This document shows positions 50,364-53,624 of a stretch of DNA of 64,000 nt, one piece after another (the first letter of the stretch is position 1; the number at the start of each line of letters is the position of its first letter). The stretch comes from Planctomycetota bacterium (GTDB lineage: Bacteria > Planctomycetota > Phycisphaerae > Phycisphaerales > UBA1924), in assembly GCA_033763975.1 (NCBI GenBank), contig JANRJM010000001.1, positions 1 through 64,000 on the forward strand, given 5' to 3'. The translations under genes were made by a program, and so were the position numbers. The notes beneath the pieces are model-generated. The model was not told the origin of the DNA, searched no databases, and worked only from the letters and a program-made list of their open reading frames with translations.

Positions 50364-50585
50364 TCAACGCTCGGGCTTCGCGGGCTTGGCGGGCAGCGGC
50401 GAATCGGTCTTCAGACGGCGGACCTGGCTCTTGCGCGCCGCGCGACGCCGGCGCTCGGAAGGCTTCTCGTAGAACTCCTTCCGCTTGATGTCCTTCGTCA
50501 GCCCTTCCTTCTCGCACAGCTTCTTGAAACGACGGAGAAGACCCTCCGTGCTCTCTCCACTGCGCGCTTTGACTCGAATCGCCAT
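50364..50585 (-). CDS. rpsU: 30S ribosomal protein S21
   Basis: A 73-residue ribosomal protein S21: VKARSGESTEGLLRRFKKLC, then EKPSERRRRAARKS. The C-terminus (PLPAKPAKPER) is longer than in E. coli. It lies 99 bases upstream of hppA on the same strand. The frame is open further upstream, but MAIRVKARS is a normal S21 beginning. Confidence 0.92.
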   Translation of the reverse strand: MAIRVKARSGESTEGLLRRFKKLCEKEGLTKDIKRKEFYEKPSERRRRAARKSQVRRLKTDSPLPAKPAKPER

Positions 50586-50819
50586 GTGCAACCTCGCCAG
50601 GGGCTTCGACAGCGAGTCCGCGACGGCCCACGCCGCCGGGAGTTCGAACCTCGCCATCTCTTGCCGGACACCCGACCCTTCCACGAACCCCGGGCCGGGC
50701 CCCAAGTAAAGCCTATCCGCCGCCCGGTATCAAGTGCCGCGCCGCTCGCCTGACGCCAACGCCCTCCCCGCCGGGTGTATCCTCCCGCCGGGTTCGGTCG
50801 TTGGTCAGGAGGGTTCTCG

Positions 50820-51338
50820 ATGCGCGCGCGTGCCAGGTCGTCGTCGGTGCGGACGGTTGGATTGGGTCTGTTCGGGTCGGGCATTCGAGCGTTCGCCCGG
50901 CAGGCCGCGAACGGCGCGACGGCCCGTGCGATCGCGAGCCGGCTGGCCGCGACGGCCTGCGCAGTGAGCATCGTCGCTGGCGCGCTCGGCGGATGCAGCC
51001 CGGCGGTCAAGTCGCACGGCCAGTCAGGCCTCGAGGCCACCTACTCCGCCCGCACGCTCTCCGCCGTCCTCCCGGCGTCCGCCCGTATCCCGGCCGTCGT
51101 CGCCGCGGCGGAGGACACCGTGCGGGCCCGCGGGTACGCCGTCGTCCGGGCCGATGCCACCGAAGAACTCGGGACGCTCGTCGCCCGCCCGCCCCGCACG
51201 AGCGACTACCCCGTGCTCGAGCTGACCGCCGACCTCGTGCCCAATGGCACCCGCGTGCGGCTCGTCGTCAAGCCCTTCGGCGATCAGGAAATGTCGCGCT
51301 CGATCCTCGACGGCACGCTGCAACGGCTGGGGATGTAA
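50820..51338 (+). CDS. Putative lipoprotein, hypothetical
   Basis: A 172-residue exported protein. A long N-terminal region (MRARARSSSVRTVGLGLFGS) leads to the hydrophobic stretch ATACAVSIVAGALGGC, ending with lipobox GALGGC. The mature domain has VVAAAEDTVRARGYAVVRAD and YPVLELTADLVPNGTRVRLV, an alpha/beta pattern without a known family. AGGAGGG lies 7 bases upstream of the ATG. Confidence 0.7.
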   Translation: MRARARSSSVRTVGLGLFGSGIRAFARQAANGATARAIASRLAATACAVSIVAGALGGCSPAVKSHGQSGLEATYSARTLSAVLPASARIPAVVAAAEDTVRARGYAVVRADATEELGTLVARPPRTSDYPVLELTADLVPNGTRVRLVVKPFGDQEMSRSILDGTLQRLGM

Positions 51339-51408
51339 CAGGACGCGCGGGACGGTGTGCGACACGCCGCGCGTCGCGGGAGCGGCGCCACGGGCCACCG
51401 CGTTACAT

Positions 51409-51488
51409 CGCCACAGCGCCACAGCGCCGCAGCGCCACAGCGCCGCAGCGCCACGTCGCCGCAGCGCCACAGCGCCACAGCGCCGCAG
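51409..51488. repeat. 8-bp tandem repeat x10
   Basis: Ten head-to-tail units of CGCC[A/G]CAG, one reading CGCCACGT. The period of eight shifts the reading frame each unit, so it is unlikely to be coding. It begins 70 bases after the lipoprotein stop. Together with the 14-bp repeat and REP copy it fills the 433-base gene-free gap 51339-51771. Confidence 0.9.
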
Positions 51489-51547
51489 GGCGGGGGTTTG
51501 CGTCACGAAGCGACCGCCGCCGATGGTCGTGCCGGGCTCCTTTCGTG

Positions 51548-51631
51548 TTGCTGCGTTCGCCTTGCTGCGTTCGCGTTGCCGCGTTCACCAGGCTGCGTTC
51601 GCCTGGCTGCCTTTGCTTGGCTGCGTTCACC
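51548..51631. repeat. 14-bp tandem repeat x6
   Basis: Six degenerate units of about TTGCTGCGTTCGCC in direct order; units 1 and 2 differ only at the last base. It lies between the 8-bp repeat and the first REP-like palindrome, in a gene-free gap. No coding role is visible. Confidence 0.85.
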
Positions 51632-51655
51632 TCGGCGCTTCACGCATCGCTCTTC

Positions 51656-51711
51656 GCGGCGAAGCCGCGGGGGTAAGTAGCCGGGGGGTCGCCGCGCAGC
51701 GGCACCCCCGG
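51656..51711 (-). repeat. REP-like palindrome pair, inverted copy
   Basis: Two hairpins in series: GCGGCGAAGCCGC (51656-51668), then CCGGGGGG...CACCCCCGG (51681-51711). On the opposite strand this reads in the same order as the two copies right of the transposase gene (52270-52324 and 52428-52482). It is therefore the inverted left partner of those REP units. Confidence 0.8.
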
Positions 51712-51771
51712 AAAGCGGCACCCCCAGATACACACTCCCCTCCCATTCGCACCGCGCAGCGGTGCGGGTGG

Positions 51772-52215
51772 TCAATCCCACAGATATCGCGGGTCGTGCT
51801 CGACCCTGTACTTCGCCAGGCACGCGAGGACTTCCTGCTTGAAGTCGGTCCCCCGGTGGTGTTCCTCCTGCCGGTCGAGGTACGCCCGGACGGCGTCGAT
51901 GGTGTCATGCCCGACGGAGAACGCGAAGTAGCCGTCCTGCCAGGCGAAGAGCGGGACCTGGTGTTTCATCCATGACGACGTGCCGCGCTTCGCGTGCAGC
52001 ATGAGGTCCGCGATGCTGGTTGTTTTTCCCAGGCTGACGAGGAGGTGGACATGGTCGGCGACGCCGCCGGCGTGGAGAAGCGCGGAGTGCATGTCGCGGC
52101 AGATGCCGCCCATGTAGCGGAAGAGCTCGGGCCGCGGGTCGAGCGGGAGTGTTGGATCGCGGCCTTTGGTCGAAAACGTAACATGGACGAGGATGCTCGT
52201 GAGCGTGGTCGCCAT
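51772..52215 (-). CDS. REP-associated tyrosine transposase (RAYT, IS200/IS605-like Y1)
   Basis: A 147-residue single-strand DNA transposase. The HUH motif is HVHLLVSL, and the catalytic Tyr lies in AVRAYLDRQEEHHRGTDFK. Length and ending (DPRYLWD) are those of the solitary IS200-like enzymes. It is not part of a classical IS with tnpB; REP-like palindromes flank it in inverted orientation, which fits a domesticated RAYT acting on REP elements. Confidence 0.88.
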   Translation of the reverse strand: MATTLTSILVHVTFSTKGRDPTLPLDPRPELFRYMGGICRDMHSALLHAGGVADHVHLLVSLGKTTSIADLMLHAKRGTSSWMKHQVPLFAWQDGYFAFSVGHDTIDAVRAYLDRQEEHHRGTDFKQEVLACLAKYRVEHDPRYLWD

Positions 52216-52269
52216 GCGCGCCAGCGTACCGCACCGCTACGCGGTGCGTGCGGGTGGTAGGCACGGCGT

Positions 52270-52324
52270 CCGGGGGTGCCGTTTCGCGGCGACCCCCGGC
52301 TATTGACCCCCGCGGCTTCGCCGC
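52270..52324 (+). repeat. REP-like palindrome pair, copy 1
   Basis: Hairpin with arms CCGGGGGT (52270-52277) and ACCCCCGG (52292-52299), then a short spacer and GCGG-CTTCG-CCGC (52312-52324). It is a direct repeat of copy 2 (52428-52482) and inverted relative to 51656-51711. It lies in the 278-base gap between the transposase and citrate synthase genes. Confidence 0.85.
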
Positions 52325-52427
52325 AAGGGAAGGTCGGCGAGGGGCGGTGAGGCGAAGAGCGGCGAGGTAAAGGGCCGCGAGGCGAACCGCGGCGACGTGT
52401 ACTGACGGTGTGCTCGGGGCACGGCGT

Positions 52428-52482
52428 CCGGGGGCGCTGCTCCGCAGCGACCCCCGGCTATGGACCCGAGCGGCTTCGCCGC
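52428..52482 (+). repeat. REP-like palindrome pair, copy 2
   Basis: A longer hairpin, CCGGGGGCGCTGC with GCAGCGACCCCCGG (52428-52457), then GCGG-CTTCG-CCGC (52470-52482). The second hairpin ends 11 bases before the citrate synthase stop codon, so it may also terminate that gene's transcript. Confidence 0.85.
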
Positions 52483-52493
52483 AGCGCGAGGGT

Positions 52494-53624
52494 TTACCGC
52501 TTCTCGATCGGCGTGTACGCGACGTTGTGGGGGCCGGTGTAGTCGACGTCCGGGCGGTAGAGGCGGTTGCCGTTGAGCTGCTCGAGCGCGTGGGCCGACC
52601 AGCCACCGACGCGCCCGATGACGAACATCGGCGTGAACAGGTCCAGCGGCAGGCCGATGCAGTGGTACGTCGTGGCGCTGTAAAAATCGACGTTGGGGTA
52701 GATGCCCTTGGCGGCCTTCTCGCGGTTCATCACCGCTTCGATCGCCGTCGACTTCTCGTACAATTGGGTGTTGCCCGTGTCGTGCGCGAGCTGCTGCGCG
52801 AGCACCTTGAGGTGCGTGGCCCGCGGGTCGTACGCCTTGTACACGCGGTGCCCGAAGCCGGGGATCTTCTCTTTCTTGGCGAGCTTGTCCTGGATGAAGG
52901 CCTCGCACGCCGCCACGCTGGGGATCTGGTTCAGCATGCGCATGACGCCCTCGTTGGCCCCGCCGTGCAGGGGCCCGCGGAGGCTGCCGATGGCGCCGGT
53001 GATCGCCGAGTAGATGTCGCTCTCGGTGGAGATGATGACGCGCGCGGTGAAGGTCGAGTTGTTCAGGCCGTGGTCCGTGTGCAGCACGAGGCAGACGTCC
53101 AGCGCCTTGGTCATGGCGGCGGTGGGGCGCTTGCCGTTGAGCATGTACAGGAAGTTCTCGGAGAGCCCGAGCGAGGCGTCTGGGCGCACGAAGGGCTTGC
53201 CTTGGCGGTGCTGGTGGAAGTAGGCCAGCAGGGTGGGCGTCTGCGCGAGGATGGTGAGCGCCTTCTCGCGGAGCGACGGCACGTCGATCGCGTTGGGCTT
53301 GGCGTCGTGCAGCCCCAGGCTCGACACGAGCGTGCGGATGGCGTGCATCGGCTCGGCGGCCGGCGGGATGTTCTTGAGGAACGCCTCGACGCCCTGCGGA
53401 ATCTCGTACCGGGCGCGGATGGCGCCGGTGAACTCGGCGAGCTCGCTCCGGGTCGGCAGGCGCCCGTTCCAGAGGAAGAACACGGTTTCTTCGAACGTGC
53501 TCTTCTCGGCCAGTTCGCCGATGGGGATGCCGATGTACTCGAGAACGCCCTTCTCGCCGTCGATGAACGACAGCTTCGTCTCCGCCGCGATCACGCCCTC
53601 AAGGCCCTTCGAGTACGTCGTCAT
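52494..53624 (-). CDS. gltA: Citrate synthase
   Basis: A 376-residue citrate synthase joining acetyl-CoA and oxaloacetate at the entry of the TCA cycle. Family motifs are VLHTDHGLNNSTFTARV, GPLHGGANEGVMRML with catalytic His, GFGHRVYKAYDPRA with the second His, and VDFYSATTYHCIGLP with the catalytic Asp. GGAGG lies 6 bases before ATG 53624. The length is that of the type II, Gram-positive/archaeal group. The methylcitrate synthase activity of related enzymes cannot be excluded. Confidence 0.94.
   Translation of the reverse strand: MTTYSKGLEGVIAAETKLSFIDGEKGVLEYIGIPIGELAEKSTFEETVFFLWNGRLPTRSELAEFTGAIRARYEIPQGVEAFLKNIPPAAEPMHAIRTLVSSLGLHDAKPNAIDVPSLREKALTILAQTPTLLAYFHQHRQGKPFVRPDASLGLSENFLYMLNGKRPTAAMTKALDVCLVLHTDHGLNNSTFTARVIISTESDIYSAITGAIGSLRGPLHGGANEGVMRMLNQIPSVAACEAFIQDKLAKKEKIPGFGHRVYKAYDPRATHLKVLAQQLAHDTGNTQLYEKSTAIEAVMNREKAAKGIYPNVDFYSATTYHCIGLPLDLFTPMFVIGRVGGWSAHALEQLNGNRLYRPDVDYTGPHNVAYTPIEKR

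Follow-up and report, generated by a model that had tools for sequence, protein, structure and literature searches.

Whether a small tyrosine transposase gene set between inverted hairpin repeats is a domesticated REP system or a mobile insertion sequence is the question raised by positions 51652-52482 of the window, a 64,000-nucleotide stretch (contig JANRJM010000001.1, positions 1 to 64,000) of the genome of a planctomycete of the order Phycisphaerales. A preliminary description, made from the letters alone, had read the arrangement as a RAYT transposase with REP-like double hairpins in the geometry of a REPtron. A citrate synthase gene adjoins the element.

Layout of the element and its hairpin unit

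The transposase gene tnpA (51772-52215, minus strand) encodes a protein of 147 aa and lies between a left unit (51656-51712) and two right copies (52260-52325 and 52418-52483), relative to which the left unit is inverted. The inverted left unit and the two direct right copies of the preliminary description are thus borne out, the left unit and the nearer right copy being 94% complementary over 32-nt arms and 93% over 29-nt arms. The right copies, each of 66 nt and 88% identical to each other, are 158 nt apart from start to start, as had been noted; the interval 51652-52482, assigned to the transposase at the outset, is the span of the whole arrangement and not the gene, which is on the minus strand. 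The double hairpin described at first is there, but each full unit beside the gene holds three hairpins (distal, central with a GTAG or ATAG foot and a bulge, and proximal, next to the gene), the proximal one having been missed. In the left unit, read on the plus strand, these are a distal hairpin GCGGCGAAGCCGC (51656-51668), a central REP (51677-51711) with a GTAG foot, an 8-bp stem, an unpaired C, a 5-bp stem, a 3-nt loop and, in this copy, one extra G, and a proximal hairpin CGCACCGCGCAGCGGTGCG (51748-51766). The inverted right unit has, on the minus strand, its proximal hairpin at 52230-52248, its central REP with an ATAG foot at 52270-52303 and its distal hairpin at 52312-52324. The third copy, also on the minus strand, has a central REP with an ATAG foot (52428-52461) and a distal hairpin (52470-52482), and the proximal hairpin of the two gene-flanking units was not found in it. 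Short tandem arrays, likewise missed at first and assigned to no strand, abut the units: one with a 14-nt repeat borders the left unit distally (51550-51632), another with a 15-nt repeat separates the right unit from the third copy (52336-52395), and an 8-nt array lies further outward from the left unit (51385-51488). When folded as single-stranded DNA, the units form separate hairpins (z = -4.3 for the left unit, -3.5 for the right), the left central hairpin competing with an adjoining partial extra repeat. Rfam gave no match at the gathering threshold within 50500-53500, and inspection of the window's list of open reading frames, as distinct from a profile search, revealed no tnpB-type gene adjoining tnpA.

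The central hairpin has one shape (foot, 8-bp stem, one unpaired pyrimidine, 5-bp stem, 3-nt loop) in 24 copies from this genome and related genomes. Both sides have changed at 8 of its 13 base pairs, with 22 covarying cells against a shuffle mean of 3.1 (none of 500 shuffles was as high), and sliding the stem partner by 1-3 columns lowers pairing from 99% to 41-58%. The strict shape without mismatch, on an [AG]TAG foot, has matches only at REPs in approximately 464 kb of the window's own genome, where the foot, GT[AG]G in REPtrons, is GTAG at the left unit and at the copy on contig C8, ATAG at five other copies and GAAG at the copy on C10. According to excerpted text of Corneloup 2021 (PMC8266576), a conserved foot together with an asymmetric bulge is a requirement of group-2 TnpA-REP in E. 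coli. Among 19 copies scanned in this genome and in genome G034, the distal hairpin is present in 19 and the proximal hairpin in 18, compared with 144 and 257, respectively, of 720 random stretches of the same loci that contain a hairpin of the corresponding type. From the end of the distal hairpin to the foot the distance is 6-9 nt in 18 of the 19 copies, and the proximal hairpin mostly begins 20-24 nt after the central stem. Stem sequences of the hairpins vary between copies and species despite the near-fixed spacing; as judged from these scans, the unit is conserved as a whole, with three hairpins at near-fixed spacing.

The hairpin proposed at the outset as the site of binding and nicking, GCGGCTTCGCCGC, turns out to be the distal satellite hairpin and not the GTAG-footed one expected as the cut target of a REP transposase. 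Within the window its 13-mer matches four times at up to one mismatch, where 1.44 matches are expected; as many as four are seen in 7 of 100 shuffles. Three of the matches are exact, all of them at the tnpA arrangement; the 13-mer is too short to count alone, and is weak evidence.

Family and class of the transposase

The protein contains a Pfam Y1_Tnp domain (E = 1.4e-19), with the motifs DHVH (residues 54-57), WQ (92-93) and YLDRQEEHH (catalytic Tyr 112), and its invariant residues were found in an alignment of 49 relatives. It scores 57.7 bits with the IS200/IS605 TnpA model NF033573, narrowly above the curated cut-off of 55, and 15.2 bits with the REP-associated tyrosine transposase model NF047646, far under the cut-off of 80, whereas the reciprocal control, E. 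coli RayT, scores 13.4 bits with the IS200 model and 179 bits with the RAYT model. The IS200 model is matched by all 49 relatives scanned (E <= 1), the RAYT model by 28 of the 49 at the same threshold (best E = 1.1e-6). In a motif survey of 107 relatives, gathered by their similarity to the window protein, WQ and Y---Q are present in all 107, Y---Q--HH in 101 and Y---NP in none. Y---NP is the motif of class 2 (RAYT), and subclass 1.2 of TnpA has Y---Q--HH, WQ and a length of about 148 aa, in the portions of Quentin 2018 (PMC6006769) that treat these groups; the same portions list REP "no" for subclass 1.2, describe it as free of IS properties and place it mostly in Cyanobacteria and Bacteroidetes. 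The name RAYT given in the preliminary description does not survive this comparison, the protein having Y---Q--HH in place of Y---NP, and membership in the RAYT family was rejected on the reversed model scores and on the motif survey.

A query with the single window protein (phmmer) yielded no PDB match at E <= 0.01. The family profile matched IS608, ISDra2 and other IS200-type structures, and RayT (4er8) was not among its nine PDB matches at E <= 1. With Foldseek for ordering and VIA-align for comparison, an AF2 model of TnpA (pLDDT 92.4) aligned best with IS608 TnpA (Z 14.6, 1.8 A over 103 residues), above 4er8 (Z 11.1, 3.7 A over 121 residues); the VIA-align comparison places the tyrosine helix in one chain, which has no bearing on dimer versus monomer. 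In a small tree with four references, RayT and the Y1 domain encoded on contig C5 (see below) are split from the rest with support of 95/97; its branches are long, and the positions of IS608 and ISDra2 within the subclass 1.2 set are poorly resolved, so that subclasses 1.1 and 1.2 are unseparated by it; with so few references the tree is not decisive. By its motifs, model scores and predicted fold, the window protein is an IS200/IS605-type Y1 transposase of class 1 with the signature of TnpA subclass 1.2. That the locus is a canonical domesticated REPtron, with a class 2 TnpA-REP, is very unlikely: inverted REP flanks, a GTAG or ATAG foot, a bulged stem, a single-copy gene, dispersed intergenic copies and the RAYT-model matches of 28 relatives are all in its favour, but it has to contend with the reversed scores, the IS200-model match of every relative scanned, Y---Q where Y---NP is called for, and near-identical whole copies of a related element in genome G006 (see below). 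Membership in the class 2 family is largely refuted.

Dispersed units and related elements

A BLAST search of the window's own genome with the 66-mer gave ten matches (E = 1.6e-28 to 3.4e-4), which resolve into nine copies at seven loci: three in the window, one each at C14:116081, C14:110859, C13:54547, C8:40604 and C10:51972, and a rearranged composite at C14:79850-79928. Eight of the copies in this genome are also found by the covariance model, and identity between the dispersed copies is 84-91%. The preliminary description had named absence of the unit from the rest of the genome as the finding that would speak against it; the count gives six further loci in the 3.27-Mb genome, and since the unit recurs elsewhere, that refutation fails. 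The REPtron-like geometry of inverted REP flanks is present as claimed; a GTAG- or ATAG-footed bulged hairpin and dispersed copies are there too. It was also fair to say that few REP systems are described in planctomycetes, yet Rhodopirellula baltica is included in a GTAG-REP survey, as passages of Di Nocera 2013 (PMC3733652) indicate. The copy number is low, nine here against 18 model hits in G034; nine copies are far below the hundreds usual for REPs, which counts against the REP reading, and REPtron copy numbers run from tens to thousands. Profile PF01797 identified three genes only in this genome (window, C6 and C5) and neither a tnpA remnant nor a transposase near the solo copies.

All six dispersed loci are outside open reading frames predicted from codon composition, and three are between convergent ones. 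Such positions would suit transcription terminators or mRNA-stability elements with an accidental resemblance to REPs, but the 84-91% identity of the dispersed copies, the lineage-specific insertion described below and the inverted pairs that surround tnpA genes at most related loci, and none of the control windows, reduce this reading to a next-to-negligible probability.

On the foot side, a tandem array lies no more than 120 nt away at six of the nine copies in this genome, at 3 of 15 in G034 and at none of nine in other genomes; on the proximal side the figure is 2 of 33 copies in all. This asymmetry may be due to neighbouring genes that lie close to the units on that side. The foot-side arrays have short periods of 7-8 or 14-16 nt, and occur also at loci L077, L062 and L059. 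Nicking as the maker of arrays beside REP units was rejected as a general explanation on the counts in G034 and the other nine copies.

Homologues of the window protein at E <= 0.001 are present in 35 of 101 related genomes, its own included; a scan of species genomes gave at least 400 loci, of which the best 80 were kept, and these are from Planctomycetota, Verrucomicrobiota, Lentisphaerae, Acidobacteriota, Armatimonadota, Ignavibacteria, one Nitrotoga and others. Five of the 104 loci inspected have short flanks and were set aside; among the remaining 99, inverted flank similarity is above all 30 shuffles at 77 and the inverted-flank score is at least 40 at 70, a score that none of 366 control windows from those loci attains, strong inverted flanks being absent at 29. 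For a class-1.1 control, an IS608 query gave only six viral loci, too few for comparison of flanks. In the survey of feet and hairpins, which had 70 positives among 98 testable loci (repeats removed, three loci added), three or more hairpins were found in an arm at 54 of the 70, and automatic detection found an AG-footed hairpin in both arms at 33, in one arm at 22 and in neither at 15. The feet, counted by arm, are CCAG (36), GTAG (18) and ATAG (12); outside Phycisphaerae, CCAG feet (36 arms) exceed GTAG (18). A 22-mer of the CCAG version (exact to two mismatches) occurs 1 to 15 times per genome in 14 genomes, often clustered at the gene and in several genomes on other contigs too, and its reversed control does not occur. 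A single tnpA, at L034 (G056:C1:2075689), is surrounded by locally dense groups of ATAG-footed hairpins that fall into two stem types.

Genome G004 has the closest relative of the window protein (74%), and in it the covariance model finds only the two flanking copies, none dispersed, a point against dispersal of the end units. Model hits of at least 40 bits are present in 7 of 61 genomes, in a search with stricter filters by which weak matches were lost, and all seven hold a tnpA homologue versus 23 of the 61 overall (Fisher p = 5.6e-4), an association with some circularity in it, since sequences from four of the seven went into building the model; the strong-hit genomes outside the model-building set are G001, G024 and G034. 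This association bears on the reading in which the window gene is a passenger and the solo units were moved by another transposase, either the class-2 Y1 domain on C5, which could act on REPs, or the class-1 TnpA on C6. Both exist in the genome, but the hairpin that flanks the C6 gene differs, as do the repeats around the C5 domain when read by eye, and the seven of seven strong-hit genomes with a window-gene homologue point, within their partial circularity, to the window gene; this reading is given very little credence indeed.

The TnpA on C6 (G000:C6:104188-104841; L021, L268) belongs to a subclass 1.2 element and is 42% identical to the window protein. Its inverted GTAGNCACGGGTG...AACCCGTGG hairpins are GTAG hairpins of its own, different in sequence from the window unit, and the genome has three copies of them, two being its own flanks and one dispersed at C14:38376.

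The C5 domain, outside the window, is a class-2 (Y---NP) Y1 domain that lies in frame within an uninterrupted ORF of 1244 aa for leucyl-tRNA synthetase (G000:C5, L190:446-4180), between WIGKS..EIEF and TTRPDT, at the editing domain, and is bordered by translated hairpin repeats; G001, G013 and G017 have a Y1 insertion at the same point of this enzyme. All 14 embedding ORFs scanned are housekeeping enzymes by Pfam (leucyl-tRNA synthetase, another class-I aminoacyl-tRNA synthetase, MiaA-type IPP transferase or Ham1), with Y1_Tnp at E <= 0.001 in 13 of the 14, some below the curated cut-off. Order-wide, 22 of 151 genomes have a match at E <= 1e-20, not all of them embedded. Intragenic REPs are known, as sections of Di Nocera 2013 (PMC3733652) attest, and literature searches found no whole Y1 gene inside such housekeeping enzymes. 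The in-frame class-2 Y1 domain in leucyl-tRNA synthetase and other enzymes is the most striking side result of this analysis.

Probable movement of the element and comparison with known systems

At the C8 locus, two convergent genes have 145 nt between their stop codons, filled by a single unit plus an additional distal hairpin. The same two genes have 4, 0 and 0 nt between their stop codons in G006, G002 and G005, respectively; the junction in G004 holds other sequence of approximately 1 kb, and the neighbouring gene was not found in the fetched stretch of G001 or G003. Comparison of these junctions marks the C8 solo unit as a lineage-specific insertion. In G006, four contigs (153-291 kb) end inside one related tnpA; the right halves are 96.5% identical and the left halves 98.1% identical, their flanks differ, and the shared sequence ends approximately 12-16 nt outside the distal hairpins. 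Left and right halves are unpairable without longer reads; the alignments mark this related element, as distinct from the window copy, as one apparently duplicated whole, with near-identical copies at different sites. Another pair of tnpA genes, on contigs C3 and C17 of G006 (L256, L255), encodes proteins 88% identical, and its homology ends at the distal hairpin on one side.

Among further paralogous pairs of elements, homology starts or ends at the distal hairpin, at one end at least, in seven of eight; that of L108/L120 does not end at the distal hairpins, and that of L255/L256 and of L117/L141 runs on past the other end. Within-genome copies of tnpA are mostly divergent (29-66%); the closer ones are those of G006 (97% and 88%), of two MAGs (92-93%) and of another (84%). 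None of six congeners has the transposase beside citrate synthase, and the 74% homologue of G004 is on a different contig from citrate synthase. A single shared empty site for the window element was sought and rejected, synteny downstream of citrate synthase being lost in all six congeners, and C14:110859 (locus A) has no conserved neighbour.

The duplication of a whole element in G006 and the gene pairs of 97%, 92% and 93% in three genomes are the behaviour of an ordinary IS200-like insertion sequence, of which the solo units would be decayed or truncated copies (MITE-like remnants) without any REP-like dispersal; the rearranged copy at C14:79850-79928 does look decayed. The solo copies, however, are single end units that retain the three hairpins at their conserved distances and lack any remnant of tnpA, and the C8 insertion is a single unit with an extra distal hairpin, not two inverted units, which makes this explanation unlikely. 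The locus is probably an IS200-class element with REPtron geometry, able both to move as a whole and to scatter its end units as REPs. The case for such an element is drawn from DNA comparisons: its architecture, covariation, dispersed copies, one solo insertion and one whole-element duplication in a congener.

Binding, cut site, strand choice and the role of the window enzyme as mover of the solo units we infer as follows. Most likely, TnpA would bind the central hairpin and its foot in single-stranded DNA, on a lagging or an excised strand. By analogy with IS608 and TnpA-REP, H55 and H57 (HUH) would hold the metal, Tyr112 would attack single-stranded DNA near the footed hairpin or at the edge of the unit, and the freed strand would be joined elsewhere. 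Action on both ends would move the whole element, and action on one end would disperse a solo three-hairpin unit, thereafter a REP between genes. Since the ends are inverted and near-identical, each strand has one footed hairpin at its 5' end, so that solo units could be set free by events at one end, and the entire element by paired ones. A more tentative proposal, though quite a possible one, is that the PVC group's subclass 1.2 elements represent a surviving intermediate stage on the way from IS200/IS605 to domesticated REPtrons: one transposase, with a single set of inverted three-hairpin ends, would both move the whole element and seed solo units, and REPtrons could then arise from such an ancestor by loss of whole-element movement.

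IS608 and ISDra2 (IS200/IS605) are like the window element in protein family and fold, and are its best PDB matches; in that family, whose transposases cut single strands as dimers, the left-end and right-end hairpins go with guide sequences and face the same way on a single strand, whereas the ends of the window element are inverted copies. TIRtrons, as portrayed in parts of Di Nocera 2013 (PMC3733652), resemble it in that a Y1 gene (TIRYT) has inverted flanking repeats, possibly palindromic, that occur as families, and by their inverted repeats they are its nearest described relatives; they differ in a GGGGWSAS motif, where this unit has a GTAG foot, and in enzymes of class 2, where this one is of class 1, the 26 TIRYT examples in the relevant portion of Quentin 2018 (PMC6006769) being of class 2 (20 in subclass 2.1, the rest in 2.2 and 2.5). 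The RAYT/TnpA-REP REPtrons of E. coli (group 2), in the text consulted from Corneloup 2021 (PMC8266576), share the inverted REP borders, the bulged stem, the dispersed intergenic copies and, in part, the GTAG-type foot; the element described here differs in its class 1 protein, its two satellite hairpins per unit and its low copy number, and in the evidence for whole-element duplication, whereas those pages report no evidence of tnpAREP mobility. To TnpA subclass 1.2, as outlined in part of Quentin 2018 (PMC6006769), it corresponds in length (147 aa against a median of 148), in DH[IV]H, WQ and Y---Q--HH, and in low copy number with divergent intragenomic copies; it differs in having inverted GTAG-tagged units, dispersed copies and whole-element duplication, and in that such elements occur here in Planctomycetota, Verrucomicrobiota, Lentisphaerae, Acidobacteriota and others.

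Among known systems, this is a class-1 TnpA element and not a RAYT; its ends probably behave as REPs, and it would work in the manner of a REPtron. The open-access literature contained no paper on REPs with subclass 1.2 and none on IS200 in Phycisphaerae, an absence of weak value. The spread of REPs, and the origin of RAYTs from IS200-type transposases, are treated as an open question in the portion of Corneloup 2021 (PMC8266576) that addresses them. The published picture of subclass 1.2, with no REPs and no IS properties, is changed by these elements. With a class-1 transposase in REPtron geometry, dispersed units, a solo insertion that can be dated and an element duplicated whole, both questions come within reach of tests that use a single enzyme and a single 110-nt substrate.
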